Assembly: GCF_007751715.1 (NCBI RefSeq)
Contig: NZ_CP036292.1
Coordinates: forward strand, 4,595,339 to 4,659,338
DNA from: Rosistilla oblonga
GTDB taxonomy: Bacteria; Planctomycetota; Planctomycetia; Pirellulales; Pirellulaceae
Length of the DNA stretch: 64,000 bases
Direction: 5' to 3'
Below are positions 11,564 to 59,325 of the stretch, piece after piece. The notes under the pieces are model-generated. The model was given only the letters and a program-made list of their open reading frames with translations, ran no database searches and had not been told where the DNA came from. How positions within the stretch are numbered: the stretch's first letter is position 1; every line of letters starts with the position of its first letter. The position numbers and the translations under genes are program-made.

Positions 11564-12942
11564 TTGCAAGCTAATGAAGCAGCAATTGCATCGACATTTG
11601 ACTGGGCTCGTATCGGGAGGGCTTTGCGATGGCTCGGCAAGCGCGGGGTGAGGTGATCGATCCGGAGCAGGTGCAGATCGTGCACTGTATCGAGCGATGT
11701 GTCCGTCGCGCTTACTTGTGTGGCGAGGATCCCTATACCGGACAATCGTTTCAGCACCGCCGTGGTTGGATCCGAGAACGACTCGAATTCCTGGCCTCCT
11801 GCTTTGCAATCGATTGCCTGACGTTTTCGATTATGAGCAATCACCTGCACTTGGTGCTTCGCAGCCGTCCCGATGTCGTCGCTGCCTGGTCCGACGAGGA
11901 GGTCGCGCGGCGGTGGCTTCGCTTGTTTCCCATCCGCCACAATGATGACAGGACGCCCGCCGAGCCGTCTGGTGCAGAGATTGCGGCGATCGTCAACAAC
12001 GAACAAGTTCTTGCTCAGCGCCGTCGTCGGCTCTCGGATATTAGTTGGTGGATGCGGTGCACGGCGGAAAACATCGCCCGACGCAGCAACGCCGAAGATG
12101 ACGTGAGTGGTCACTTTTGGGAAGGACGTTTTAAAGCCCAATTAATTCTCGATGAGGCGAGTTTGATGGCCTGCGCAGCCTATGTCGATTTGAATCCAAT
12201 TCGAGCTACGATCGCCCAGACGCTCGAATCGAGTGAATACACGGGAGCCAAAGAGCGAATCGACGATATCACTTGCGCTTCGGAGCAAAACCGCCAGCAC
12301 GTTCATGATTGGGAGCGGAGCCGAATACCGCACAACAGCGGATGGATGAGTCCAGTGGAGATCAACGAGCGAGACGATCCGATCGGCGCAGACATCGATT
12401 CGAGCCATCGGCGGTCGAGCAGCAAAGGATTCTTATCGATATCCTTGTCCAAATACCTCGCACTGATAGATTGGACAGGGCGTCAGTTGCGAGACGACAA
12501 ACGAGGTTCGATCCCCGCCGAACTCGCACCCGTTTTGACGCGCATCGGACTCGACGCCCCCGCTTGGTGCGATTTGGTCAAACGATTCGGACGTCTGTTC
12601 AAACGAGCTGCTGGTACATCGCAGAGTCTCTGCCAAGAAGCCGCTCGGCGCAGGCAAGCATGGATGCAAGCTCCCCAAAATCCATTAGTTGGTCCAGCCC
12701 CTCCGTAAAGCTCCTCCACCGTCCCTCAAACTCAGCTGAACTGCGGCCGCTTTCAAACCGAACAACCGAGTATCGCTCCTAGCAATAGCTTTGGAGCGGA
12801 CATAGCACACTCAACTCACATTGAGGCCCGGTCGCAGTGTCTCCTCTCCACTAAAAATTCCCCATCCAACCTCACGCAAAATATCAGCTCCCACCACCGC
12901 ATTGCCTGAGTAAACCAAAAGTTTGGCTGTCCCCAAAATCGC
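11564..12942 (+). mobile_element. RAYT transposon-like unit, copy 1 of tandem pair
   Basis: A 1379 bp unit running from TTGCAAGCTAATGAAG to GGCTGTCCCCAAAATCGC, joined head-to-tail without spacer to copy 2. It includes the transposase gene and about 235 bp of 3' flank (12709-12942) with no other gene. The unit limits were set by comparing the two copies; no target-site duplication was recognised. Confidence 0.8.
11629..12708 (+). CDS. REP-associated tyrosine transposase (Y1/RAYT), copy 1
   Basis: 359 residues. A Y1 transposase domain covers about residues 15-200. The metal-binding HUH motif is N-HLH (His72, His74) in IMSNHLHLVLRSR. GHFWEGRFKAQLILDEASL and AAYVDLNPIRA follow, the latter carrying the likely catalytic Tyr185. 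These are marks of IS200/IS605-related RAYT enzymes, which nick and rejoin single-stranded DNA and act on REP-type palindromes. The C-terminal 150 residues are an extension beyond the core domain. There is no accessory TnpB. The frame is intact and differs from copy 2 at 7 residues. The GTCCCC/GGGGAC motifs around it are candidate substrates. Confidence 0.85.
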   Translation: MARQARGEVIDPEQVQIVHCIERCVRRAYLCGEDPYTGQSFQHRRGWIRERLEFLASCFAIDCLTFSIMSNHLHLVLRSRPDVVAAWSDEEVARRWLRLFPIRHNDDRTPAEPSGAEIAAIVNNEQVLAQRRRRLSDISWWMRCTAENIARRSNAEDDVSGHFWEGRFKAQLILDEASLMACAAYVDLNPIRATIAQTLESSEYTGAKERIDDITCASEQNRQHVHDWERSRIPHNSGWMSPVEINERDDPIGADIDSSHRRSSSKGFLSISLSKYLALIDWTGRQLRDDKRGSIPAELAPVLTRIGLDAPAWCDLVKRFGRLFKRAAGTSQSLCQEAARRRQAWMQAPQNPLVGPAPP

Positions 12943-14322
12943 TTGCAAGCTAATGAAGAAGCAATTGCATCGACGTTTGACTGGGCTCGTATCGGGAGGG
13001 CTTTGCGATGGCTCGGCAAGCGCGGGGTGAGGTGATCGATCCGGAGCAGGTGCAGATCGTGCACTGTATCGAGCGATGTGTCCGTCGCGCTTTCTTGTGT
13101 GGCGAGGATCCCTATACCGGACAATCGTTTCAGCACCGCCGTGGTTGGATCCGAGAACGACTCGAATTCCTGGCCTCCTGCTTTGCAATCGATTGCCTGA
13201 CGTTTTCGATTATGAGCAATCACCTGCACTTGGTGCTTCGCAGCCGTCCCGATGTCGTCGCTGCCTGGTCCGACGAGGAGCTCGCGCGGCGGTGGCTTCG
13301 CTTGTTTCCCATCCGCCACAATGATGACGGGACGCCCGCCGAGCCGTCTGGTGCAGAGATTGCGGCGCTCGTCAACAACGAACAAGTTCTTGCTCAGCGC
13401 CGTCGTCGGCTCTCGGATATTAGTTGGTGGATGCGGTGCACGGCGGAAAACATCGCCCGACGCAGCAACGCCGAAGATGACGTGAGTGGTCACTTTTGGG
13501 AAGGACGTTTTAAAGCCCAATTAATTCTCGATGAGGCGAGTTTGATGGCCTGCGCAGCCTATGTCGATTTGAATCCAATTCGAGCTACGATCGCCCAGAC
13601 GCTCGAATCGAGTGAATACACCGGAGCCAAAGAGCGAATCGACGATATCACTTGCGCTTCGGAGCAAAACCGCCAGCACGTTCATGATTGGGAGCGGAGC
13701 CGAATACCGCACAACAGCGGATGGATGAGTCCAGTGGAGATCAACGAGCGAGACGATCCGATCGGCGCAGACATCGATTCGAGCCATCGACGGTCGAGCT
13801 GCAAAGGATTCTTATCGATATCCTTGTCCAAATACCTTGCACTGATAGATTGGACGGGGCGTCAGTTACGAGACGACAAACGAGGTTCGATCCCCGCCGA
13901 ACTCGCCCCCATTTTGACTTGCATCGGACTCGACGCCCCCGCTTGGTGCGATTTGGTCAAGCGATTCGGGCGTCTGTTCAAACGAGCTGCTGGTACATCG
14001 CAGAGTCTCTGCCAAGAAGCCGCTCGGCGCAGGCAAGCATGGATGCAAGCTCCCCAAAACCCATTAGTTGGTCCAGCCCCTCCGTAAAGCTCCTCCACCG
14101 TCACTCAAACTCAGCTGAACTGCGGCCACTTTCAGACCGAACCGCCGATTATCACCCCCAGTAATAGCTTTGGATCGGACATAGCACACTCAACTCACAT
14201 TGAGGCCCCGTCGCAGCGTCTCCTCTCCACTTAAGATCCCCCATCCACCCTCACACAAAATATCAGCTCCCAGCACCGCATTGCGTGAGCAAACCGAAAG
14301 TTTGGCTGGCCCCGAAATCGCT
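12943..14322 (+). mobile_element. RAYT transposon-like unit, copy 2 of tandem pair
   Basis: A 1380 bp unit directly abutting copy 1. Its terminal motif has decayed to GGCTGGCCCCGAAATCGCT. Over the 3' flank (14088-14322) I count about 24 differences from copy 1 in roughly 235 bp, far more than in the gene itself. Confidence 0.8.
13008..14087 (+). CDS. REP-associated tyrosine transposase (Y1/RAYT), copy 2
   Basis: 359 residues, the same length as copy 1. Replacements are Y29F, V92L, R108G, I121L, and S to C, V to I and R to C in the C-terminal part. The HUH motif (His72, His74) and Tyr185 are kept, so both copies look functional. It is 1379 bp downstream of copy 1 in the same orientation. No partner gene is seen. 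Confidence 0.85.
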   Translation: MARQARGEVIDPEQVQIVHCIERCVRRAFLCGEDPYTGQSFQHRRGWIRERLEFLASCFAIDCLTFSIMSNHLHLVLRSRPDVVAAWSDEELARRWLRLFPIRHNDDGTPAEPSGAEIAALVNNEQVLAQRRRRLSDISWWMRCTAENIARRSNAEDDVSGHFWEGRFKAQLILDEASLMACAAYVDLNPIRATIAQTLESSEYTGAKERIDDITCASEQNRQHVHDWERSRIPHNSGWMSPVEINERDDPIGADIDSSHRRSSCKGFLSISLSKYLALIDWTGRQLRDDKRGSIPAELAPILTCIGLDAPAWCDLVKRFGRLFKRAAGTSQSLCQEAARRRQAWMQAPQNPLVGPAPP

Positions 14323-14452: not shown

Positions 14453-17400
14453 TCAATGGTCTCGAGAGCGTTGAGAGTCAAAAGTTCTTTTGGTTTCGAG
14501 CTTACCGAAGACTTCAGTCGCATTCTCAAGAGCAGTTGTTTTAACGATCCATCGCTGTAAAACGGGCTGGCGATGGCCGTCGCTTCTCGATGCCCCCTCT
14601 GTTGAAAGTCGCTGGTATTTGGCGACTTCTTCACCGTCTATTTCCCAGACCGTTGCATTTGTTGACGATTGTTTCCAGCCTAACCGCTCGGACCAATGTT
14701 TTGCGGGTTGTACAGCAAAACTACAGTGAGGCAATCGGTGATGCCCTCCAGAAAAGGAAACCGAAACAGAAGCGAATTGCATTTCACCAGATTCAAAAAC
14801 GACATCGTTCCACCAAACGAATGATCGGCCGCTTGCGGATGTCAACATTTCCGGAAGGCCAAGCCCAAAGATGTTGGCCGGTGCCTCTAACCAACATGTC
14901 AACATCGAGTCACTTGGGTACTGGAAATCCAGTGCGACGCCGCCCAACAACGACCAATCGGACGGAATTCCATACACGAGTCGATCAAACATTTCGTTTT
15001 CTTTATCGTCAAGATCATCTGGGTTGGATTCCCATGCCTCAGATAGACAAAGCTGTTGTGGCCGCGTCCGATAAATCCAAGGATCTTCATTGACAAGCAG
15101 TGCGAGTGCGAGCGCAGGGATTTGGGTTTGGTCTAGGTTGCCAGTGGATACTGTTTGACACAACGCGTTTCCAACCGCGATCTCCGTTTGGAAATCGCTC
15201 ATGAAAGTACCGTCGTACCTTTTGGGACCATATGGCTTTGTCGAACTGTCACGTGGTTCAAATTTCCCCAATTCTCGAGAGACGATCGCTTCAACATCTG
15301 GCAAGCCTAGGCCGAAGCGTTCTATGAGTTTTAAAACCGAAAGGGCAGCTCGATTTCGATCTGTGCAAGCAATTTTGCCAACAATGTTGGCTGGCACTGA
15401 TAAAATCCTCTGAGTAAGGCCAGCCAACTCTATTTCGCCAATGTTAGGATTCTCCGGCAGAGGAAATTCGCAAAACTCCTCGTTCAAATTCTCCGACAGT
15501 TTCTTAAGAACAAGCCAAGCCTGAAGGCGAATGTCGAAGTGTTCGCTCGATAATTTGTCCTCAAGGATAGGCTTCACCGCGTTCAAAGCTTCCGAGTGCA
15601 GCGTCGCCCATACTTCCGCCGAATTGAGTAACCAGCGTTCAGACCTTCCGTCTGTCAATGTCTCGAAAAGTATGCGAATCGCGGCCGGATTTTGGTCTAC
15701 GAGTGCATGCATTCCTTCCAAGCCCGCACAGACCACTTCGTTACTGAATGAGTCAAGCAACAATCGAAACAACCTCGCGGCTCCCTCTTCCCACGTTACA
15801 TTTTCGATATCAGGGCGTGCATTCCAAGTCGGATTGGCTCCGAAAGACCACCGACTATGCATTTGGATTTGAATTTCCAAACCAGCCAACACAACCTCTA
15901 CTCCTCTTGCGAATGCTCGACCTCGGGCAATCTGAAACAAGTCTTGGTGACATGAATGGCGGTACTGGTCGGCTGCCGTTTTGCTTACTGCATCGCAAAC
16001 TGCACTCCAAAGCTCTGCATCCGTCCGATTGTCGGCGGCTGCCGGGTTGAACACTGCGCTGTGCCGATCAATTGTCTGATCGGAGGCTTCGGAGTCAGAA
16101 CATTGAACCTGAACGATTCTTTTCAACAGTTCGCTTTCTGGTTTGCAATCCAACTTGCTAATTAAGCTTTTTCCTAGAATCAGAAGATCGCTATTGTCGG
16201 TGTCACTGAACCAGTAACTAAAACCAACCGCCAATGCCCAAAGCGCTTCAGGCTGACGATCAGCGAATTCAAAAGACTCAACCGTGCTACTGAAAATTGT
16301 GCCTGAAACAACCCAATCACGAGCCCATTGGTGCCAACTCTCGTCATCCACATTGTCCAAAGTTGACTCAATCAAACTCAGCCAACCTGCGGCTCCGAAA
16401 TTCATTGCGGCTCCAAGAGTCGCGTGATAGACCGAAGAACTAAACGAGTTGTGGGCGTATTTCAATCGGCAGTTTTCGCAAAGCTGCCAGAGTTTCCAGC
16501 CTTGGTCGGTCCAAATATCTGGTTGTTGTGCAATTGCAAACTCGAACCAGAGGCCAACTTCCTGAAACGCGTACTCTTTTCGATCTCTATAGTCGATCAG
16601 CATCCAGCGAGTGCGTTCACTCGCCGAATTAAACAATTCGTCTAATCCGATTTCCAAAGCATAGGGTTTCAAATCATCAATCGTTTCGACGACAGACGAG
16701 TTCGAATGCTTGAATGCAGCGCCCTCGTCGCCAATATGGTGTGACATCCAATTTCGAAGCAACTCAGGTTTTCCGGCATTTCGAACCAAGTTCCAGATTG
16801 ATTTCATGCGTCTACCAAGCGGGCAGTTTGGTGCAACTGCGACGGCAGCTTCTTGGGCAATGGCTTCGTATTCACCTCCAAGACGCTTGCAGACGCCAAC
16901 AATTTGTTCAGCGAGTTCAGCAGCGTGCTCGAATAATCCAGCCCAAAAACTATTTCCCCAAAGAACTCGAAGGATCTCACCTATTCTCACTGGTGAGATT
17001 GTCGTTTTCTGGCCAGCGGAGTCACCCAAGGCATCTCGTTCCAAGCGGCCAACACAACCTGCAGCAAGCAGTAGAGTCTTAACTTGGGCTTCAAATCGTT
17101 TTTCAATCTGGCCGAGCTGTCGAAGTATGACTGACGGAATGTCGATCGGGTCAACATCAGATCTTGTCCAGCCAATCGCACCTGCAACACATGTAAACGC
17201 TCGAATGTTACCACGTGAGTAGTTATCCATTCCGTTCGTATTTAGATCCTGAAGCCCCATGGTGAGAGATGACAGTGGGGCCAACCATTTTTCTTTATTC
17301 GCGACGCCTGATTTAAGGGCGTACCACGTGGTTTCCGCGAGAAACTCTGATGTTAACAAGTCAGCCGAAAGCGTCTCTAGCCATTCGCAGACTAAGCTCC

Positions 17401-20140
17401 AATCCTCGTTCGATGCGAGATTGCGAATCGAGGATTCAATATTAGATATGAAGAACGGCTTGTTGATCCCGAAGACATCATCGAGCGAAGCATTAGAATT
17501 CGAATCCGAAGTTTTTTCATTGCAGAACCCTTCTTCGAAGGATTTCAACGCTGTTCGTTCGATCTTGTTAAGATCCTTAAGATGCGGACACTGGATAGCA
17601 ATATTGAGCTGCGCGCAACATGCCCCAAGATCTCGAAAAGCGATTTTTAGAGACTCGTCCAGCTCTCCCTCCTTCGATGCGAACAAACTGATGCTTTGTG
17701 TTGTACTGTCAGGAATCAAATCCAAAATCTCTTTTAGATTTAAGCCTTGAAACCAACGCTGAATGAGTCCCTTGGCACGAGCCAGTTCAGACCCGCCGCA
17801 AAGCTCACCAATGTCTCGGACAACACTGCAAACCAGCTTGCTTGTCCAGTGGTCGGTAGGGCGCACCAATGATTCCGTAGACAAAATCGTTGGCACAGAA
17901 ACGGGGGCTCGTGTTGGCCCATGATCCGCATCGTCAGTCAGCCGGTCGAGTGTTTGCATTCCGCAGGCAACCGAGACGACGTTGTTCCAGCATCCATTTG
18001 CCGAAAGCTGTTCCGCCGCCGCCGCTGCCTCGTCCCAAAGTTGCTTATACGGAATATCAAGGCTCACTCCTTCAAGCACCCAGTCGGTATCAAAGATGTC
18101 GGCTAGTCGCTGCGGCTGTCCTGCCAAGCGTAAAAGTTCTGGGAGCTGCAAGTGGGCAGAAATGCGATTTGCCGCCGGATCGCTGCAGTAGAAGTTCGCA
18201 AGCTCTTCACATACCGATCGCTTTTGCTCAGGAGGAGACCCTTGAAATTTTTGAGCAAGAAACACTCTTACGTCGTTGTGCCGAATTCGGTAGCCGTCAG
18301 CGTGTTGTTCAAGGAGCGGCTTCAGTTTGATCAGGCAGGCCTGCCACATTGCCTCCGGCAAATCCCAGCTTTGGAAAGCTATCGCCAATTCAGCTGCAGT
18401 AATGTGCGTACGCGATAGCGATATCGCGCAGGCCAAACAGCAGCTAACCTCCGGCCTGTCTGAGAGCGCGCTAGTCCATATTGATTGGTAATAATCCGTA
18501 AGTGTGTCGCTCAATCGTCGTTCTTTGAGACTGGCTTCAAGCTCATCAACAGTGGATGCCATCGAAGCCTCAGCGACAGAGAAGACCGTGGCCAACGTGC
18601 TCCCTTTGGTCAGCTCAAAAATCATGCGTGCTGCGGTTTCGATTTGATCGACCGGGATAGTTAGGTCGCAATCGTGAAGTAACTGTTCAACATCCTTTAC
18701 CTTGATCGCGGGCAGAATTCGTCCGTCCACATTAGGATGATCGAGTTTTAGCCAATTTGGATATTGATCTGGGTAAAATTGTTCAGGCTGACCGGCGATC
18801 AGCAAACGAACATTTTTGTCCGCAAGCTGATCTGGGCTCGGAATCGAACGAAAGAATTCCCGAACTTGATCGGGGTTGACTTGAGCCGCTCTCGCCGCGT
18901 GGTCAATTCCGTCAATGGCAATTACGAATTTGGCTCCTCGCTCGGCTCCGATGAAATCTGCGAGTCTCAGCACGTGCTCACGCATCTCGGACCATTTGAG
19001 CAAATCATTGCGAACAGGCACGCGACATTCGCTGAGTCTCCCTCTCAGAAGTATTCGGATTTGAGTAAGCAAACTTCCCCACAACTCTACGGCAGTCACT
19101 TTGGAAGCATCCGGATCAATGAAAGGCTTTTCGGGCCTGATCGGTTCAAAACAGAAAAAGCGAGCATTCACAGCACAGTCAAAAAATTCGTCTTTCCTTT
19201 GTGTTGTCAGCCAACTAACACAACTGGTTTTTCCGCTCCCCGCATCGCCGCTAAGAAACACGACCGGCAACCCAGCTTGCTTTTTTAATTCGCTTTCGAG
19301 ATCTTTCGCAAAAGGAACTCGGGACTCAAAGTAGGGAGTGGGCGGCGGCGGAGGCGTTCCATAATCTAACTCACTAGGTTCAATAGCCAGTGCTTCACAG
19401 ACAGATTCACTAACGACAGTTCTCGAAGTGTCGTCTGCATGCCAACCGGTCGTAGTCCACTTTCGGAGCGCAGTGACCAAGCTCTTGTAAAGAGTTTCCG
19501 TCAAGGCAGCGCTACTCCCTAGCGAGTCGGTCAGCATTGACTTGATGCGGCTTTCAATCCCCTCAAGTTCGTCTTCACTGGTCTTTATTTCCAGCAACTT
19601 CAGGAATTTCGCAACTTCAGGTTCCTTGCCGCTTGGAAAACACCCAAGCCATTCTTTCCATGCAGGTTGGTCATCAACATCGACTGTCACTGCCCCAATC
19701 GGTACGTCGCTGTCAATCTGCTTCTTCAGTGCCTTCCAAAATTTAAGCAATTTCGGTCGAGCATCGCCATTCTTTCGCTTTGATCGCTCCGAGCCCGCTT
19801 TTCGATTCGTAAAGAGAATGAGCCTGTTCTTTGAGTCAAGAAGTCCCGACTCGACTGCACCTTTAAACAAATCGCCAATTAGCGTTCGGCCTTTATCATC
19901 TTTTGCAACTAAATCTCCAAATGTGATGCTTGCGTTTTCTCGTGTATGCTTGATTTGATAACAACGCTTGCCTCCATCTTTGAGGCCAGCCGAAACGTCG
20001 TCCCACTTGATGGTATCTGAACCCTGAAAAAGAACGCTCGCTACGTCTTCATCAGGGTTGAGAAGTTTGACGACCTCCAGAAGTCCTACAAACGATTCGT
20101 AGTAGTACGGATCGTGCAAACCAGATGTGTCTTTAGCCAT
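14453..20140 (-). CDS. STAND NTPase with Cap4/DUF4297-like nuclease N-terminus (Avs-like defence candidate)
   Basis: 1895 residues. The N-terminal part has SDTIKWDDVSAGL followed by KRCYQIKHTREN (Asp47, Asp48, Gln62, Lys64), a D...QxK pattern as in the dsDNA endonuclease domain of Cap4/DUF4297 effectors. A linker with GTPPPPPTPYFESR leads into a P-loop NTPase. Walker A is GDAGSGKTS (298-306), Walker B FVIAIDGIDH (about 405-414), and RLLIAGQPEQF (445-455) is a sensor-like strand. From about residue 640 to the end there are 1200 residues of mostly helical, Trp/Leu-rich sequence, probably repeats that sense a target. This effector-STAND-repeat order is that of antiviral STAND (Avs) proteins, which cut DNA after binding phage proteins. 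The gene is visibly lower in GC than its surroundings and lies in an island beside transposases. Defence function is inference. Confidence 0.75.
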   Translation of the reverse strand: MAKDTSGLHDPYYYESFVGLLEVVKLLNPDEDVASVLFQGSDTIKWDDVSAGLKDGGKRCYQIKHTRENASITFGDLVAKDDKGRTLIGDLFKGAVESGLLDSKNRLILFTNRKAGSERSKRKNGDARPKLLKFWKALKKQIDSDVPIGAVTVDVDDQPAWKEWLGCFPSGKEPEVAKFLKLLEIKTSEDELEGIESRIKSMLTDSLGSSAALTETLYKSLVTALRKWTTTGWHADDTSRTVVSESVCEALAIEPSELDYGTPPPPPTPYFESRVPFAKDLESELKKQAGLPVVFLSGDAGSGKTSCVSWLTTQRKDEFFDCAVNARFFCFEPIRPEKPFIDPDASKVTAVELWGSLLTQIRILLRGRLSECRVPVRNDLLKWSEMREHVLRLADFIGAERGAKFVIAIDGIDHAARAAQVNPDQVREFFRSIPSPDQLADKNVRLLIAGQPEQFYPDQYPNWLKLDHPNVDGRILPAIKVKDVEQLLHDCDLTIPVDQIETAARMIFELTKGSTLATVFSVAEASMASTVDELEASLKERRLSDTLTDYYQSIWTSALSDRPEVSCCLACAISLSRTHITAAELAIAFQSWDLPEAMWQACLIKLKPLLEQHADGYRIRHNDVRVFLAQKFQGSPPEQKRSVCEELANFYCSDPAANRISAHLQLPELLRLAGQPQRLADIFDTDWVLEGVSLDIPYKQLWDEAAAAAEQLSANGCWNNVVSVACGMQTLDRLTDDADHGPTRAPVSVPTILSTESLVRPTDHWTSKLVCSVVRDIGELCGGSELARAKGLIQRWFQGLNLKEILDLIPDSTTQSISLFASKEGELDESLKIAFRDLGACCAQLNIAIQCPHLKDLNKIERTALKSFEEGFCNEKTSDSNSNASLDDVFGINKPFFISNIESSIRNLASNEDWSLVCEWLETLSADLLTSEFLAETTWYALKSGVANKEKWLAPLSSLTMGLQDLNTNGMDNYSRGNIRAFTCVAGAIGWTRSDVDPIDIPSVILRQLGQIEKRFEAQVKTLLLAAGCVGRLERDALGDSAGQKTTISPVRIGEILRVLWGNSFWAGLFEHAAELAEQIVGVCKRLGGEYEAIAQEAAVAVAPNCPLGRRMKSIWNLVRNAGKPELLRNWMSHHIGDEGAAFKHSNSSVVETIDDLKPYALEIGLDELFNSASERTRWMLIDYRDRKEYAFQEVGLWFEFAIAQQPDIWTDQGWKLWQLCENCRLKYAHNSFSSSVYHATLGAAMNFGAAGWLSLIESTLDNVDDESWHQWARDWVVSGTIFSSTVESFEFADRQPEALWALAVGFSYWFSDTDNSDLLILGKSLISKLDCKPESELLKRIVQVQCSDSEASDQTIDRHSAVFNPAAADNRTDAELWSAVCDAVSKTAADQYRHSCHQDLFQIARGRAFARGVEVVLAGLEIQIQMHSRWSFGANPTWNARPDIENVTWEEGAARLFRLLLDSFSNEVVCAGLEGMHALVDQNPAAIRILFETLTDGRSERWLLNSAEVWATLHSEALNAVKPILEDKLSSEHFDIRLQAWLVLKKLSENLNEEFCEFPLPENPNIGEIELAGLTQRILSVPANIVGKIACTDRNRAALSVLKLIERFGLGLPDVEAIVSRELGKFEPRDSSTKPYGPKRYDGTFMSDFQTEIAVGNALCQTVSTGNLDQTQIPALALALLVNEDPWIYRTRPQQLCLSEAWESNPDDLDDKENEMFDRLVYGIPSDWSLLGGVALDFQYPSDSMLTCWLEAPANIFGLGLPEMLTSASGRSFVWWNDVVFESGEMQFASVSVSFSGGHHRLPHCSFAVQPAKHWSERLGWKQSSTNATVWEIDGEEVAKYQRLSTEGASRSDGHRQPVLQRWIVKTTALENATEVFGKLETKRTFDSQRSRDH

Positions 20141-46153: not shown

Positions 46154-46707
46154 ATGGACCAAGACTCAATCCAGCGGCTCGCCAAGTTTGCTCACGCGTT
46201 CGCAGCGCCGATCTATCGCTCGGTTTCGATTCGACATTCCCGATCGAAGGATATCCTTTCGGGGGAAGGGAGTTTCCGATTTGGCGGCCGTTGGAATCCA
46301 CCCGGACTCCGTGCAATCTACGGCGCGCTTACGCCTGAAGTTGCGATGGCCGAAACGTTGGCAGCCGCTCGCTATCATGCCTAACGGCTCATACCGTGAT
46401 GCCACGGATCTTTGTGGCAATCCATGTCCAGTTGAGTTTCGTTCTCGACCTAACCGCTGCCAACGTGCAGGCCACAGGGCGATTTCGATCCTCCCGATTT
46501 ACACACGTCGATTGGCGGGCCAACGTCGACAAGGGGCAGATGCCCGCGACGCAAGCGATCGGCAGTGCCGCAGCAGCCATCGGCCTGGAGGCGATCCTCG
46601 TTCCGTCCGCTGCGGCAACAAAGGGGCGAAATCTTGTTGTCTTCGTCGATAATTTGGTCGGATCAAGCTTGGTCGAGGTCCTTTCGGCGAACGACCTCGA
46701 GCTTTGA
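46154..46707 (+). pseudogene. RES-domain toxin gene, apparently frameshifted
   Basis: The first part (46154-46384, frame 2) reads PIYRSVSIRHSRSKDILSGE, SFRFGGRWNPPGLRAIYGAL and TPEVAMAETLAAARYHA, then a stop. The second part (about 46384-46707, frame 1) continues as MPRIFVAIHVQLSFVLDLTA and on to the natural C-terminus LSANDLEL. Together they match one RES-domain protein (NAD-degrading toxin of RES-Xre pairs), with the usual GGRWNPPG and acidic helix, so a single reading-frame shift near 46375-46395 is the simplest reading. It could be a true pseudogene, a sequencing error or a programmed shift. The adjacent Xre antitoxin gene is intact. Confidence 0.6.
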
Positions 46708-46732
46708 CTACATGCAAATTTGCATGTAGAAT
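46704..46732 (+). promoter_or_regulatory. antitoxin promoter with embedded palindromic operator
   Basis: -35 TTGACT (46704-46709, over the toxin stop codon), 17 bp spacer, -10 TAGAAT (46727-46732). A perfect 22 bp palindrome (46708-46729, halves CTACATGCAAA and TTTGCATGTAG) fills the whole spacer and touches both boxes. A bound dimer would block RNA polymerase. It is the expected target of the downstream Xre-type antitoxin. Confidence 0.75.
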
Positions 46733-46787
46733 GTACTGTTGGCTCGCGGGCCGTAGGTGGCGATCTCGACAGGCGGAGTTCTCAGAG

Positions 46788-47186
46788 ATGACGAAGAAAA
46801 CACCCAACAATCATTCCACTGCAACTTCGCGTACCGGCGGCTTGGCTATCGTTGAGGATACGCGCGGTCGACGCGCGCTCCAGCTCCGTTCCAAGCTGGG
46901 AATGAGTCGGGAGGTCTTTGCGAGACTAGTCCCCACCTCGGTTCGAAACCTTGCCAGTCTCGAATCGGGACAACCACCTTCGCCGGTGATCCAGAAGAAT
47001 CTAACCGAGTTGCAACGCGTCATTTCCGCTCTGGAAGATGTCGTCAAGCAAGAAGCGATCGGTCCCTGGATGGATCAACCCAATGCTGCCTTTGAAGGTC
47101 TTAAACCGATCGAAGTGATTGAACGAGGCGAGATCGATCGCATCTGGCGAATGCTCTACCAACTGCAAAGCGGTGACGCTTTTTAA
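46788..47186 (+). CDS. Xre/DUF2384-type antitoxin
   Basis: 132 residues from the ATG at 46788. A helix-turn-helix (about 30-75: RRALQLRSKLGMSREVFARL, VPTSVRNLASLESGQ) is followed by a toxin-binding domain of the Xre/MbcA/ParS type (KPIEVIERGEIDRIWRMLYQ). Such antitoxins bind RES toxins and repress their own operon. Here the toxin gene is upstream and the antitoxin has its own promoter, with a 22 bp palindrome between them. The antitoxin looks intact although the toxin frame is broken. Confidence 0.8.
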   Translation: MTKKTPNNHSTATSRTGGLAIVEDTRGRRALQLRSKLGMSREVFARLVPTSVRNLASLESGQPPSPVIQKNLTELQRVISALEDVVKQEAIGPWMDQPNAAFEGLKPIEVIERGEIDRIWRMLYQLQSGDAF

Positions 47187-49294: not shown

Positions 49295-49590
49295 GAACCG
49301 GCTCCCGCGGCTTCCAACTCGCGAATCTCTCCGCTGGCGACTAGGCAACGCAGCTCAGCTGAATCGGGAGCGCTCGATTCTCGTTGGTCGGTCTACGCCC
49401 AGGCGGCGTTTCTGCTAAACGCCGCTTCCGCCAAATCGCGGAAACGGTTTGGCTTTCTCACGCCTGCGTACACGCTATCGACAAGCAGGCGCGTTTGTAG
49501 CGGCTGATCGGATTCTGGTTTGCTAGCGTGCACCCGTCCGGCCGATAGATCTATTTGGCCGAAGATCTCGCGAGTTGATTTGCGTGGTCG
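49295..49590. other. gap after psd with a strong hairpin
   Basis: No gene. A perfect 9 bp hairpin, GCGGCGTTT-CTGCT-AAACGCCGC (49403-49425), lies in it, with no U-run after it. It could end transcription of psd by a different mechanism or be part of an unknown RNA. Confidence 0.4.
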
Positions 49591-51633
49591 ATGCCCAACA
49601 TCAGCCTTTCACGATCGGGAATTGTCACTCAAACCGGCTCGCCCAGACGCATGGAAACCCTTTGTCCAAACGAACCGTTCCGCTTTTCGGCGCAGACTCC
49701 TTCGGGGTCTGCCGCCGCAAATGCGTCGAGCGAGGACTTGGTCCATCAGACCCGGCGTGAAATTCAGCTGTTGGTGCGGGAAGCGTCCGACCTGGTGCAC
49801 AGCTGCCGCGACGCAAAGGCGTTCTGGCCTGCGTTCCTCGACCGCGTGCAACGCGCGACCGCCGCCAATTCGGTCAGTCTGTGGCAGTTGAACAACGATC
49901 TGCCTACCGAACTGCAACGTGTCGGTCGGCCTGCTGTTCCGGAATCCGATACGTTTTCGGTTCGCTGCCACGCTCATCTTGTCGGCGAAGTTGCCTTTCG
50001 GGCTGAACCGGTTCTGGTCCCTCCGACCAGCGAAGCCACCGAACCGGACGAAGCTGCCAACACCACCGATTCACTGGCCGTCCTGGTGCCAATTTTGGTC
50101 GATGGCAAGAGCGAAGCGGTATTGGAGGTTTTGATGCCGACCGGCGGCGGGCTGGCGACGCAGCGTGGCTACCTGCGGTTTGCGGCGCAGATGGGCGATC
50201 TGGCGGGCGAGTTTTTACGTACCGAGACGTTACGTCAAGTTCGTCAGGACCAACAGGATTGGATTCGATTGGGTCACAACGTCGCTGGCTTACATCGCTC
50301 GTTGGCCTTTGATGACACAGCGGCAGCGATCGTCGATGTCGCTGCGGCGACGTTTGAGATCGATCGTGTCAGTCTGCTACAACGCGACGGCAACCACTGG
50401 AATGTTGTTGCGATCAGCGGCGTTCCCGATTTCGACAGCCACGCCCCAACCGTCAAAGCCTTGAGCGGATATGTGCAACATCGCCGGCAAACCGACGAAG
50501 GAGCGATCTGGCCCGTCGAATCGATCGACGAAGCGTCGGACATCATCCCCGTCGTCGGCCTCCTGCCGCTGGGCCCCTCGAGCTCGTTGTTGTTGCAATC
50601 GACCGGCGGTCCGCTCTCGCCAGCTGAACGGAAACGCTGGCTCGCCTTTGCCGACCACGCGACGTCGGCGTGGAACAACACCGACCGCTTTGAATCGATC
50701 CCCTATGCATCGCTGCAATCGCAGCTGTTCACCGCCGGGGGCCGCGTCGAGGGATCACGCCGCACGCTGATCGTCGCCGTGTTGATCGCGATGTTGTTGT
50801 CGGCGGTCGCCATGATTCCGGTGCCGTTGATCGTATCGGCTGAAGGAAAGTTGGAACCGGTCGACAAGCAGATCGTCTACGCACCGCGCGACGCGATGGT
50901 TTCGAAGGTCCTTGTCGCCCACGGTGATCACGTGCAACCGGGAGACATCCTGGCGGAGTTGATCGATCCGCAATTGGATCAACAAATCGACGATTGTTTG
51001 GGACAACAAAACGTACTTGAACAGCGGGATCGCGAGCTCAAAGCGTTGATGATCTCGATGGCTGGCAAGTCGAGCGAAGAACGCGAGCGGATCGAGGGGG
51101 AATTTAAAGTCGTCCAACAAAAGCGGGACGGCATCGCGCGGCAGATCCGCTTGCTGCAAACGCAGCGTACCGGACTGACTCTCCGCGCCGCTCAAGCCGG
51201 CCAGGTGATCGGATGGCGGATCCAACAGGAACTTGCCGATCGTCCGGTTCGCCGCAGCCAACAACTGCTGCAAGTTGTCGATCCCGACGGACGTTGGGTC
51301 GTCCGCGCGTCGGTTCCTCAGGAACGAATCGATCATGTTTTGCGAGCTGTCGACGGCAGCGACAAACCTGTCGACGCCCAAGTTGTCTTTCGATCGTTCC
51401 CCAACCAACCAATCAACGGCAACCTGCAAAACGTCGGTTTGGCCGCCTTGACTGCCGAATCGGAACCCGCGACGGGGATGGCGGAAGTTGCAATCGAGAC
51501 CGCCGACCTGCCGATTCGCCAGCCCGGTGCAATCGCAACCGTCGCAATCCCTTGCGGGCAAGAAGCTTTGGTCTACGTCGCCTTCCAAGATTTGATCCGG
51601 GCGGTCTCCGAAGCGATCGGTGTTTATCTGTAG
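49591..51633 (+). CDS. GAF-HlyD fusion membrane protein (adaptor-like)
   Basis: 680 residues; a start at 49651 (ATG) is also possible. The N-terminal half carries a GAF-like sensory fold (about 228-360: AGLHRSLAFDDTAAAIVDVA, ATFEIDRVSLLQRDGNHWNV). One membrane helix follows (about 392-416, LIVAVLIAMLLSAVAMIPVP), then a periplasmic HlyD/lipoyl-like adaptor (KQIVYAPRDAMVSKVLVAHG, VQPGDILAELIDPQL). The adaptor has a coiled stretch and a second lipoyl half (LRAAQAGQVIGWRIQQELAD). It is the first of three colinear genes (next gene 6 bp away). The GAF part suggests control by a small ligand. Transport substrate unknown. Confidence 0.75.
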   Translation: MPNISLSRSGIVTQTGSPRRMETLCPNEPFRFSAQTPSGSAAANASSEDLVHQTRREIQLLVREASDLVHSCRDAKAFWPAFLDRVQRATAANSVSLWQLNNDLPTELQRVGRPAVPESDTFSVRCHAHLVGEVAFRAEPVLVPPTSEATEPDEAANTTDSLAVLVPILVDGKSEAVLEVLMPTGGGLATQRGYLRFAAQMGDLAGEFLRTETLRQVRQDQQDWIRLGHNVAGLHRSLAFDDTAAAIVDVAAATFEIDRVSLLQRDGNHWNVVAISGVPDFDSHAPTVKALSGYVQHRRQTDEGAIWPVESIDEASDIIPVVGLLPLGPSSSLLLQSTGGPLSPAERKRWLAFADHATSAWNNTDRFESIPYASLQSQLFTAGGRVEGSRRTLIVAVLIAMLLSAVAMIPVPLIVSAEGKLEPVDKQIVYAPRDAMVSKVLVAHGDHVQPGDILAELIDPQLDQQIDDCLGQQNVLEQRDRELKALMISMAGKSSEERERIEGEFKVVQQKRDGIARQIRLLQTQRTGLTLRAAQAGQVIGWRIQQELADRPVRRSQQLLQVVDPDGRWVVRASVPQERIDHVLRAVDGSDKPVDAQVVFRSFPNQPINGNLQNVGLAALTAESEPATGMAEVAIETADLPIRQPGAIATVAIPCGQEALVYVAFQDLIRAVSEAIGVYL

Positions 51634-51639
51634 GTTCAA

Positions 51640-52668
51640 ATGACAGACCCTCAAGCGGTAGGCTCAATGCAACAACATCTCTTCAACCTCAAACGGCGGC
51701 TCATCAACATCCACGAGACACAACACATTCACGCACCGTCGCAACCGCAGTCACGGCCCAGACGCACTGCGTTTTTCAAGCTGTCGCTTGGACTGTTGGG
51801 GTTCGCCGTGGCGCTTGCGGTGTCGCCCGCCAACGCTCAGCCCACGTCGACACTGATCGTCGTTGAAGACTGCGCTGTCCGGTTTGCAGAAGAGATTCGC
51901 GTTCCGGCGGTCGAAGCGGGACGTGTTGTCGAAGTCAAAGTGAAGTTGAACGACACGGTTGCCGCGGGACATTCGATCGCCCGACAAGATGATGCTGCGG
52001 CATTGTTGCGTCGTCGAGCAGCCGTTTGGCAACAGACCGCGGCGAGGGAGGAGACTAGCGACGAGGTCGACCTCGATTACGCCAAGGCGTTGTACGCTGA
52101 AGCGGTGGCGCAGCGAGACGCCGACAAAGGGATCTATCAAAAAGGGGGCGGATCGCTGCGAACGGTGCGACAAAGCGAACTAGGCGTCGAACGGGCGAGG
52201 CTGGAGATCGCACGAGCTGAGAAGGCGTTGCGACTTGCGCAAATCCAATACGAACTGCGATCGGCGGAGCTGTCGGCGATCGATGACCAACTGGAACGCT
52301 TGCAAATCAAGTCGCCGATCGCTGGAGTGATCCTGTCGATCGAACGGCGAGCCGGGGAATGGATCAAAGAGGGAGAGACGATCGCGACGGTCGCGCGGAT
52401 GGATCAACTGCGAATCGACGCCTTCCTTTCCGCCCAACAACTGCCGCAACAACAAGCGGTTGGCTCACCCGTCAGCGTTGTCTGGCAGAACGCAGGACAA
52501 ACACATCAGTTAAGCGGTGTGATCGATTCGGTCGACCCGCAGATTTTGACCGGGCAGCGTTATCGACTGCATGCGACGATCGATAACAAACGGCTGGGCA
52601 ACTCGTGGCTGCTGTTGCCGGGAACCGAAGTTGAAATGCGGGTCCATCCGCCACAGAGAGGCCGCTGA
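51640..52668 (+). CDS. HlyD-type periplasmic adaptor protein
   Basis: 342 residues with an export segment at about 48-65 (KLSLGLLGFAVALAVSPANA). A lipoyl/barrel-sandwich first half follows (VRFAEEIRVPAVEAGRVVEV, LNDTVAAGHSIARQDD). Next come a long helical hairpin (KALYAEAVAQRDADKGIYQK, RARLEIARAEKALRLAQIQY), then the second lipoyl half (LQIKSPIAGVILSIERRAGE) and beta-barrel. This is the layout of RND/ABC export adaptors. It sits between the GAF-HlyD gene and the M50 gene with only a few bases between them. No RND pump or ABC transporter is adjacent. Confidence 0.8.
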   Translation: MTDPQAVGSMQQHLFNLKRRLINIHETQHIHAPSQPQSRPRRTAFFKLSLGLLGFAVALAVSPANAQPTSTLIVVEDCAVRFAEEIRVPAVEAGRVVEVKVKLNDTVAAGHSIARQDDAAALLRRRAAVWQQTAAREETSDEVDLDYAKALYAEAVAQRDADKGIYQKGGGSLRTVRQSELGVERARLEIARAEKALRLAQIQYELRSAELSAIDDQLERLQIKSPIAGVILSIERRAGEWIKEGETIATVARMDQLRIDAFLSAQQLPQQQAVGSPVSVVWQNAGQTHQLSGVIDSVDPQILTGQRYRLHATIDNKRLGNSWLLLPGTEVEMRVHPPQRGR

Positions 52669-52670
52669 AG

Positions 52671-54725
52671 TTGAACCCTGCGATCGCCGCTGCCGATCAG
52701 CCACCGCCCGCCGACAAACCATTGGACCGGCCGGCGGTAAACGCTGCGCCGCGGGTACGGCTTCGCACCGATCTGCAAGCGACACCAACCTATCACCAAG
52801 GCCGGCGGTATTGGTTGGTTCGCGATCCATTGGCTCGGCAGGTCGTGCGATTGTCGGAGTCGGACTACCAGCAGCTGCAACATCTGGAAGATGCCGATCC
52901 GCAGCTGATCGCCGAAGCGGCAGAGCAGCAGTTGTTGCAAGGGGTTCCGCAATCGCGGCGTGGCGGATCGCGATCGGGAATCAATCCGTTTTACCTGCGT
53001 TTGCCGGGCATCGATCCGGAGCGGATTCTGAGTTGGCTGGTCCCCCGAACGCGTTGGCTGTTCAGCAAACCCGCCATCGCGTTTTGGATGGCGGTCATCG
53101 GGTTGGCGATCGCGGTGGTGCTGACGCAGGTGCGACAGTTCTCCCAAGCGTTGCCATCCTTCCATGCCTTCTTTGGTCCCCAAAACTGGCTGCCGCTGGC
53201 GATAACGATCATCGTTACCAAAGTCGTCCATGAACTGGCGCACGGTGTCGTCTGCCGTCAGTTTGGGGCGCGATGTCCGGAGATTGGTGTACTGCTACTG
53301 TGCGGTACTCCGTGCATGTATTGCGACGTGACCGATTCGTGGTCGCTGCCCAACCGTTGGCAACGCGCCGCGGTCATGCTGGCGGGCGTCTATGTCGAAG
53401 CGATCCTCGCTGCGGTGGCAACGTTAATTTGGTGGTCGTCGCGCGTCGGACCGGTTCATTTTGGATGCATGAACTTGATGTTCGTTTGCGGCGTCAGCAC
53501 GCTGCTGTTCAATCTAAATCCGTTGATGCGGTTCGACGGATATTACGTACTCAGCGATCTCGTCAACGTCCCCAACTTGCGCAGCCAAGCTGCCGCGGCG
53601 TGGCGGTCGTCGATCGTCGCTCCGCTGGCTGGCGATGCGTTTCGCGATGCGATCCCTTGGCGACCACGCGGTGCGCGATGGTTGGTCTTGTTTCATGCCG
53701 CTTCGACCGCGTGGCGATGGATGGCCGTTGTGGCGATCGCCAGCTGGGTGATCGCCGTCGCCGATACCGCGCGGCTGTTGCCACTGGGATATCTCGCGGC
53801 GAGTGGATTGATCGTCGCTGCGGTCCTGCCGATGTTCCTTAAACTATTCCGCGTGGCGCGCGGTGACGACGCCTGGAAGGGAGTGAATCGAATGAGACGC
53901 GCGGTTTTGATTGGCGCTGCGATCGCAGCGGTCGTAGTGCTGTTTCTCGTTCCGTTGCCGCGACGGATCGCCGCGACGGGAGTCGTCGATTACGCCGACG
54001 CGGCAACCCTGTATGTTCGCAGCGGCGGACGCGTCGATCGTGTCGATGTCGAATTCGGCCAACGCGTCGCCGAGGGAGAATCGGTAGTTCAGTTGGAAAG
54101 CCCTCAATTGTTGCACGAACAGATTCAATTGGTCTCTCAATCGGCGGAAGCTGGCGTCCGCGTCGCTTCGCTCCGCCGCCGGGCGCTCTCGAATCCCGAA
54201 TTGATGGACCAATGGGACAGCGAACAAGCGACGGCGGATCGATTGCAACAGCGGGTCGAATTCCTGCAACGGCAGGTTCAACAGCTGACGATTTGCAGCA
54301 CCACCGCTGGAATTGTCCTCCCGATGATCGATCCGGTTCGGGCGGCAAAGGTTTCACTGCGCGAGTTGACAGGCCAACATCTAGCCGAAGGAACGAAGCT
54401 GTGCCGCGTCGGCGATCCCCAGCGGCTGGAAGTCGTGTTGGAGTTGGACGCCGAGGCACGGGCTTTGATCGACACCGGCAGCCGCGTGCGGATTCGATTC
54501 GATCAGAACGGGATCGGCGTTATCGAAAGCCGCGTCGATTCGATTTCAGAGATCCGCGAAGGGGAGATGCAAGCGGCGGTGCGCGGAGCGGAAAAGTTCC
54601 GGATCATCTGCAAGCTGCCCGACACAACATCCGCTCTTGCCGGAACGCGAGTTAGTGCAAAAGTAACCGCTCCGCCGGAAACCCTCGCTCACCGCGTCGC
54701 TCGCGGATGGCGTGAGACCTTCTAA
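52671..54725 (+). CDS. PqqD-like / M50 metalloprotease / HlyD fusion membrane protein
   Basis: 684 residues; TTG start, two bases after the previous stop, so probably coupled. Residues about 28-92 (LRTDLQATPTYHQGRRYWLV, HLEDADPQLIAEAAEQQLLQ) resemble a PqqD-like peptide-binding winged helix. Membrane segments follow, with the zinc motif HELAH (His187, Glu188, His191) and FNLNPLMRFDGYYVLSDLVN (Asp289 as third ligand), as in M50 site-2-protease-like proteins. The last 270 residues form a HlyD/lipoyl adaptor (TLYVRSGGRVDRVDVEFGQR). Fusion of these three parts is known in peptide-export systems, but no precursor peptide or exporter is visible here. Role inferred. Confidence 0.75.
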   Translation: MNPAIAAADQPPPADKPLDRPAVNAAPRVRLRTDLQATPTYHQGRRYWLVRDPLARQVVRLSESDYQQLQHLEDADPQLIAEAAEQQLLQGVPQSRRGGSRSGINPFYLRLPGIDPERILSWLVPRTRWLFSKPAIAFWMAVIGLAIAVVLTQVRQFSQALPSFHAFFGPQNWLPLAITIIVTKVVHELAHGVVCRQFGARCPEIGVLLLCGTPCMYCDVTDSWSLPNRWQRAAVMLAGVYVEAILAAVATLIWWSSRVGPVHFGCMNLMFVCGVSTLLFNLNPLMRFDGYYVLSDLVNVPNLRSQAAAAWRSSIVAPLAGDAFRDAIPWRPRGARWLVLFHAASTAWRWMAVVAIASWVIAVADTARLLPLGYLAASGLIVAAVLPMFLKLFRVARGDDAWKGVNRMRRAVLIGAAIAAVVVLFLVPLPRRIAATGVVDYADAATLYVRSGGRVDRVDVEFGQRVAEGESVVQLESPQLLHEQIQLVSQSAEAGVRVASLRRRALSNPELMDQWDSEQATADRLQQRVEFLQRQVQQLTICSTTAGIVLPMIDPVRAAKVSLRELTGQHLAEGTKLCRVGDPQRLEVVLELDAEARALIDTGSRVRIRFDQNGIGVIESRVDSISEIREGEMQAAVRGAEKFRIICKLPDTTSALAGTRVSAKVTAPPETLAHRVARGWRETF

Positions 54726-58437: not shown

Positions 58438-59325
58438 CTAGCGACGCTTGGTCGCTTTCTTTTTCGCAACCTTCTTCTTCACTGCTGCCTTCTTCGCGAC
58501 CTTCTTCACGGGTGCTTTCTTGGTAGCTGTCTTCTTAACGGGAGCCTTCTTCTTGACGGCCGCTTTCTTCACAGCTGCCTTCTTCTTGACGGCTGCCTTT
58601 TTCGTCGCCTTCTTAACTGGCGATTTCTTGACCGCTGTCTTCTTCACAGCTGCTTTCTTCTTAGCTGTTTTCTTGACAGGAGCCTTCTTGACCGACTTTT
58701 TCGCAGCCGCCTTCTTTGTCGTGGTCTTCTTCACAGCAGCCTTCTTCTTGACGGGCGCCTTCTTCGTCGCCTTCGTCTCGCCGCCACCACCGATCAACTT
58801 TTCAACCATCTCTTGACGATAAGCCTTCGCCAACTTTTTGGCCGCTGCGTTACCGTGTTGATTGATGCTGAACGACTTCTCCAATTGGCGGCCGTCTTCG
58901 GTCCAGATTGCCACCCAAGCTTGTTCGTCTTTACCGCGACGCACGCGAGTCCGCAGGTAATAACCAGCGGCGTTCAAGCGTGGGCCCTTGCTTCCCTTGA
59001 AGACGCGAGCCGGCAGTTCTTTCAGTTGTTCATCGCGGAACTTCGTCGCCGCGATCTCCGCTTTTCGCGTGCTTCCGTAGACGCCATCGGAGAACAACTT
59101 GCTGACATGCTGGTCACCGCGTTGGATTCGGACCCACCAGCCGCGGCAGCCTTCGTGATCCATCCGCGTGAGGTTCATTCGTTTTTTCACGTTATTTTGA
59201 TCCCATTGGTTTCTAAAGAGAGTTGAGTCGACATTCGGGCCCCTAGTTGTTTGGACTGGCTTGTCCCGTGTCGGTTCCTGTTTTTTTTGAACCTCTTCTA
59301 ACTTGTCGCAACGCCAACGCAGCAC
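58438..59325 (-). CDS. AP2-like DNA-binding protein with histone-H1-like tail
   Basis: 295 residues; later starts (Met50 or Met55) are possible. Two AP2/ERF-like blocks are seen: CRGWWVRIQRGDQHVSKLFS followed by KAEIAATKFRDEQLKEL (about 60-105), and AGYYLRTRVRRGKDEQAWVA then EKSFSINQHGNAAAKKLAKA (about 120-172). From about 183 to the end there is a Lys/Ala/Pro/Val repeat (KKAPVKKKAAVKKTTTKKAA type, many units), as in H1-like tails of bacterial nucleoid proteins. It probably coats or bends DNA. The tail makes the DNA low complexity around 58450-58780. Confidence 0.7.
   Translation of the reverse strand: MLRWRCDKLEEVQKKQEPTRDKPVQTTRGPNVDSTLFRNQWDQNNVKKRMNLTRMDHEGCRGWWVRIQRGDQHVSKLFSDGVYGSTRKAEIAATKFRDEQLKELPARVFKGSKGPRLNAAGYYLRTRVRRGKDEQAWVAIWTEDGRQLEKSFSINQHGNAAAKKLAKAYRQEMVEKLIGGGGETKATKKAPVKKKAAVKKTTTKKAAAKKSVKKAPVKKTAKKKAAVKKTAVKKSPVKKATKKAAVKKKAAVKKAAVKKKAPVKKTATKKAPVKKVAKKAAVKKKVAKKKATKRR

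Follow-up and report, generated by a model that had tools for sequence, protein, structure and literature searches.

Positions 49591-54725 of a 64,000-nucleotide stretch of DNA from the planctomycete Rosistilla oblonga (the whole stretch is called the window here) carry a three-gene cassette that encodes a GAF-HlyD fusion, a stand-alone HlyD-type adaptor and an M50-HlyD fusion, the last joining a membrane metalloprotease to an adaptor domain. The three open reading frames (ORFs) lie on one strand, separated by gaps of only 6 and 2 bp, and they are real genes forming an operon-like cassette. The position of the ORFs and, PqqD apart, their Pfam domains agree with a preliminary description of this cluster made from the DNA letters. 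The features are as follows:

49591..51633, + strand: GAF-HlyD, 680 amino acids (Pfam GAF_3/GAF, HlyD_3; hydropathy)
51640..52668, + strand: HlyD, 342 amino acids (Pfam HlyD_3, HlyD_D23; RND_mfp 1.6e-19; hydropathy)
52671..54725, + strand: M50-HlyD, 684 amino acids, TTG start (Pfam Peptidase_M50, HlyD_D23; AlphaFold2 model)
49493..49548, + strand: conserved non-coding block, candidate promoter or 5′ leader (900-bp upstream alignment, three congeneric species)

The first protein is matched by HlyD_3 (4e-11) and by GAF_3/GAF (1e-4, under Pfam's cut-off). Hydropathy places its GAF region in the cytoplasm, followed by a single transmembrane helix (residues 388-419) and a periplasmic adaptor domain. 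Its true start is probably 49651 and not 49591, since conservation with the congeners sets in at METLCPNEPF. The middle protein (HlyD_3, 5e-16) has an N-terminal hydrophobic signal at residues 43-66, ending in SPANA-Q, and is predicted to be a stand-alone periplasmic adaptor. The third (Peptidase_M50, 3.5e-9; HlyD_D23, 1.4e-11) consists of a truncated PqqD-like N-terminus (residues ~30-90), a multi-helix M50 domain and a MacA-like adaptor (~428-684). The lipoyl, hairpin and beta-barrel domains of HlyD/MacA-type adaptors are found in the cassette adaptors. Upstream of the first gene, the 56-nt block at 49493-49548 is conserved amid otherwise diverged sequence, and no sigma-70 consensus was found in it.

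The protease site and the PqqD remnant

M50-HlyD has its zinc motif, HELAH, at residues 187-191 and the distal Asp289 within NPLMRFDG. As the preliminary description had it, this site is intact: His187, Glu188, His191, Asn283 and Asp289 are invariant in 66/66 homologous proteins, and the M50 domain is therefore likely to be an active zinc protease. Like the site-2 proteases of Pfam M50, it combines HExxH with the downstream Asp of an NPxxxxDG motif in transmembrane helices; unlike them, it bears a C-terminal adaptor domain. The AlphaFold2 model is confident, with a predicted local distance difference test score (pLDDT) of 88.8, and the best Foldseek matches of its C-terminal part are MacA and MexA. 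These fold searches returned adaptor matches only, the HlyD half being dominant, and are uninformative on the PqqD and M50 parts.

The N-terminal region had been described as a PqqD-like peptide-binding domain, a claim that is not borne out: what is left here is a remnant. A core paralogue has a complete PqqD-like fold (three strands, three helices and one strand; Pfam PqqD 1.1e-3), and Pfam PqqD matches among the M50-HlyD paralogues range, below threshold, from 1.7e-4 to 1.1e-3. The cassette's own M50-HlyD has no Pfam PqqD match, and in its model the domain ends after two helices, the third helix and the subsequent strand being absent. A search of the region's sequence against the PDB found nothing. 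The span from Asp34 to Phe131 measures 92-112 residues in 24 proteins of the cassette's own subclade, defined below, versus 130-165 in 42 others; as the two ranges are fully separate, it is a clean marker of the subclade.

Relatives of the cassette within and beyond the genome

Across the family, 146 of 149 genomes match the M50-HlyD profile, with as many as nine copies in one genome, and 39/40 genomes (own and relatives) match the GAF-HlyD protein. The trees of both proteins agree on the same divergent subclade, to which the 49591-54725 cassette belongs; this subclade, called window-type here, was delimited by a score gap (482 versus 427 bits) and comprises 25 of the 149 genomes. All 25 window-type loci were read. 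GAF-HlyD and M50-HlyD are present in every one and HlyD in 24 (it is absent in L130 and lower-scoring but present in L028). The grouping is more than chance, because the order GAF-HlyD, HlyD, M50-HlyD and the strand recur in these 25 loci. The same order is kept in the core clade, and dozens of further homologous loci exist.

The cassette's own genome (7.25 Mb) contains eight M50-HlyD genes, and the clusters around them supply parts that are missing beside the cassette. One of them (L011, G000:C1:4672700-4692600) is a complete paralogous cluster ~32-37 kb downstream of the cassette, just beyond the window, with SecA-like, HlyD, GAF-HlyD, M50-HlyD and OEP (outer-membrane channel) genes, divergent from a giant DUF4347/RTX gene; a similar proximity of ~30 kb between cassette and complete cluster occurs in one of two congeners. 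L009 encodes an OEP, a SecA-like protein, HlyD, a second HlyD-type adaptor and M50-HlyD. In L015, an OEP gene stands with genes for two HlyD-type proteins and for M50-HlyD, and a giant DUF4347/cadherin gene points away from them. L012 is a pair of SecA and M50-HlyD, L014 has a three-gene order identical to the cassette's, and an OEP is also present in L010. The complete SecA-like proteins retain the Walker A, DExD and AGRGT motifs. Pfam revealed no RND, ABC or MFS pump in the neighbouring ORFs that it was run on, and no OEP gene lies beside the cassette, so the earlier statement that there is no pump nearby holds in cis; it fails genome-wide, where paralogous clusters carry a SecA-like ATPase and a TolC-type channel.

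Linkage between these genes was counted in 18 genomes. Of 37 secondary SecA genes, 19 have an M50-HlyD gene no more than 10 kb away, where 0.56 were expected. SecA often adjoins the cassette in the core clade, and directly follows M50-HlyD in Schlesneria and another planctomycete; in the cassette's genus it has been relocated away. The own-genome SecA-like gene nearest the cassette is ~37 kb off, within another complete cluster, and an orphan SecA of the same genome (L018) branches within the clade of SecAs that adjoin the core cassette in relatives. Judged by this branching, the genus has lost the SecA linkage without losing the SecA gene. Core-type SecA was listed in 48/48 genomes of one search, and in two window-type genomes (G074, G084) it is the only secondary SecA among the matches listed.

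Two other SecA candidates were rejected. In one congener (L022), the SecA close to the cassette is the canonical one. A short SecA subtype, considered as a dedicated partner, is enriched in window-type genomes (9/25 versus 3/124 others; Fisher 4e-6, not corrected for kinship), but it is absent from the other 16 and linked to DUF4347 in three cassette-less genomes; so sparse an occurrence among window-type genomes rules it out as the motor of the subclade at large. Within one genus, three genomes (L142, L143, L144) have a short SecA-like gene divergent from a giant DUF4347 gene, and no M50-HlyD cassette was found within the stretch read.

One paralogous M50-HlyD clade adjoins a TolC-type OEP and giant DUF4347/RTX/cadherin exoproteins. 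In the same 18 genomes, 12/23 DUF4347 genes are at most 10 kb from an M50-HlyD gene, with 0.41 expected (P about 1e-15, a value that is too small because the loci of congeners are not independent). By our count this amounts to some seven separate loci, and in almost all of them the DUF4347 gene and the exporter genes are transcribed divergently. In L151 (G020:C1:9198000-9217900), a complete OEP-SecA-HlyD-GAF-HlyD-M50-HlyD operon has giant DUF4347 genes on both flanks. The DUF4347 link concerns the sister clades and not the window-type subclade. The preliminary description had seen neither an exporter nor a substrate here; this stands for the window-type subclade, but not for the sister clades, whose clusters contain SecA, a TolC-type OEP and giant DUF4347 proteins.

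Such loci had been described as early as 2015, when Kamneva, Poudel and Ward reported a secondary SecA together with HlyD, weak M50 and GAF-HlyD proteins in the Planctomycetes-Verrucomicrobia-Chlamydiae (PVC) group and other bacteria (PMC4452313). They proposed SecA as the ATPase motor and the M50 protein as the pore, noted an OEP gene in some of the secondary SecA_DEAD loci only, and called the broader role "completely unknown", naming no substrate and not mentioning DUF4347 (PMC4452313). The system is thus little described, as had been suggested, but not undescribed. In the open-access literature searched, we found no later study of SecA/M50-HlyD/GAF-HlyD loci, nor any papers dealing with daptide metalloproteases or with DUF4347 in connection with SecA. 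The cassette shares with the published loci the presence of M50-HlyD, HlyD and GAF-HlyD in one locus and the weak M50 similarity. It differs in its truncated PqqD-like N-terminus and in that no secondary SecA_DEAD or OEP gene adjoins it or the 25 window-type loci. It is a variant of these loci and not a member, since it lacks the linked SecA that defines them. What is new here is the window-type subclade with its truncated PqqD, and the statistical association of the sister systems with giant DUF4347 proteins.

A putative exporter core and its alternatives

The reading that we prefer, at about even confidence, is that the cassette specifies the part of a type-I-like trans-envelope exporter that sits in the inner membrane and periplasm, while the motor and channel are encoded elsewhere and the M50 protein clips the substrate. 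In its favour are the shared retention of the three genes, the invariant catalytic residues, the MacA/MexA-like fold of the HlyD halves, and the SecA and channel genes of homologous clusters. Three HlyD/MacA-like adaptor chains would be available, one on the multi-helix M50 domain, one on a single transmembrane helix with a cytoplasmic GAF region, and one secreted to the periplasm. Going beyond this topology, a mixed adaptor ring on the M50 base would dock a TolC-type channel encoded elsewhere, while the zinc protease would hold and cut the membrane-inserted or leader part of a substrate, presumably a protein. A SecA-like ATPase acting in trans, most probably the single core-type SecA, would push this substrate, and the GAF region may gate export on a small-ligand signal. 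Such an apparatus would share its HlyD-type adaptors with classical type I secretion (HlyB-HlyD-TolC), but it has three distinct adaptors, some of them fused to M50 or GAF, and no ABC transporter was found with them among the neighbouring ORFs tested. The preliminary description had already taken the adaptors and metalloprotease as signs of peptide or protein export; the adaptors, the intact M50 site and the GAF-bearing protein uphold it, but its peptide half is weakened by the degenerate PqqD-like domain.

Several observations weigh against an exporter core. Neither a secondary SecA nor an OEP gene adjoins the cassette in any window-type locus (0/25), so that their use by this subclade is something we infer; no substrate gene is linked to these loci, and just nine of the 25 genomes have the short SecA subtype. 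The PqqD-like region is truncated in 24/24 window-type proteins measured, and substrate recognition must therefore differ from that of the sister clades.

For the wider protein family we would tentatively go further, at somewhat less than even confidence: it may be a secretion machine in its own right, with a SecA-like ATPase and an M50 protease-adaptor in the place of the ABC transporter of type I secretion, and may export and clip giant DUF4347 surface proteins. The cassette would then represent a branch without the PqqD reader, having another cargo or being SecA-independent. The DUF4347/RTX/cadherin link gives the sister systems a testable cargo and, if true, a secretion route driven by SecA instead of an ABC motor. 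As a natural variant with a truncated PqqD and neither SecA nor a channel linked to it, the window-type subclade can be used to ask which components are indispensable.

The lack of a secondary SecA, OEP or substrate beside the 25 window-type loci, together with the intact M50 site, the GAF domain and the truncated PqqD-like domain, would also fit a pump-less signalling or proteolysis complex. In that case a GAF- and adaptor-regulated M50 protease would cleave a membrane regulator or process envelope proteins, with HlyD as a scaffold and no export. We find this rather doubtful, because it is difficult to see why three HlyD/MacA-type adaptors should be retained together if there is no channel, and OEP and SecA are present in the homologous clusters.

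Maturation and export of a ribosomally synthesized and post-translationally modified peptide (RiPP) of the daptide or epipeptide kind, its leader peptide being cut off by the M50 protein, is improbable. The M50 region does match the daptide metalloprotease model NF041824 (4.6e-51, 174 bits) and LiaK/YydH (1e-7), and the paralogues share with these proteins a PqqD-M50 backbone, retaining a PqqD-like (RRE-type) domain. The curated cut-off of 300 bits is, however, reached in none of the 18 genomes (best 205); the cassette protein is fused to HlyD and its PqqD core is missing, the degeneracy of this domain throughout the subclade weakening any peptide reading. Neither an ABC transporter nor a RiPP enzyme was found among the neighbours tested. 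The earlier remark that no short precursor gene lies nearby was confirmed by an ORF check, which revealed no conserved short ORF common to three congeneric species in 900 bp upstream.

A small-molecule or metal efflux apparatus with an unlinked pump is quite improbable. The middle protein resembles both HlyD and RND_mfp, and the adaptor fold is that of MacA, MexA and EmrA, but here adaptors are fused to a membrane protease or to GAF, no RND, ABC or MFS partner is found among the Pfam-tested neighbours, and the association of the sister clusters with SecA and giant proteins points to protein cargo.

As for a conserved fourth partner, which the preliminary description had envisaged, the only gene conserved beside window-type cassettes across genera encodes a release-factor-like (RF-1/GGQ) protein. 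It lies directly 3′ of the cassette in 19/22 loci outside the genus and within 4 kb in two more, often overlapping the cassette end (L026, L028, L122-L141). Synteny of a fourth gene is thus real, but genomes that lack the cassette have this gene too, and in the own genome it is 163 kb away, its place being taken in the genus by an aquaporin gene. We therefore judge the adjacency to be ancestral synteny, and a functional partnership, for example in the export or clearance of stalled polypeptides, to be highly improbable.

Neighbouring genes in the window

The cassette is preceded by a phosphatidylserine decarboxylase gene, and the aquaporin gene downstream is followed by those for an esterase, a PQQ-repeat protein and others (Pfam). 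A few kb upstream (46396-47186, + strand), a RES-domain ORF and, after it, an Xre/MbcA/ParS antitoxin-like ORF probably form a toxin-antitoxin pair. Further away, a 1895-residue protein (14453-20140, - strand) has an N-terminal match to LmuA, the Lamassu effector (5.7e-8), and an AAA/NTPase domain, and is likely to be a STAND-type or Lamassu-like anti-phage defence protein. The consecutive ORFs at 11629-12708 and 13008-14087 (+ strand), each of 359 residues and ~32% identical to the same L013 protein, are probably a tandem duplication. Lastly, the ORF at 58438-59325 (- strand) encodes, in this bacterial genome, an AP2 DNA-binding domain (4.5e-9), which is most familiar from plants.

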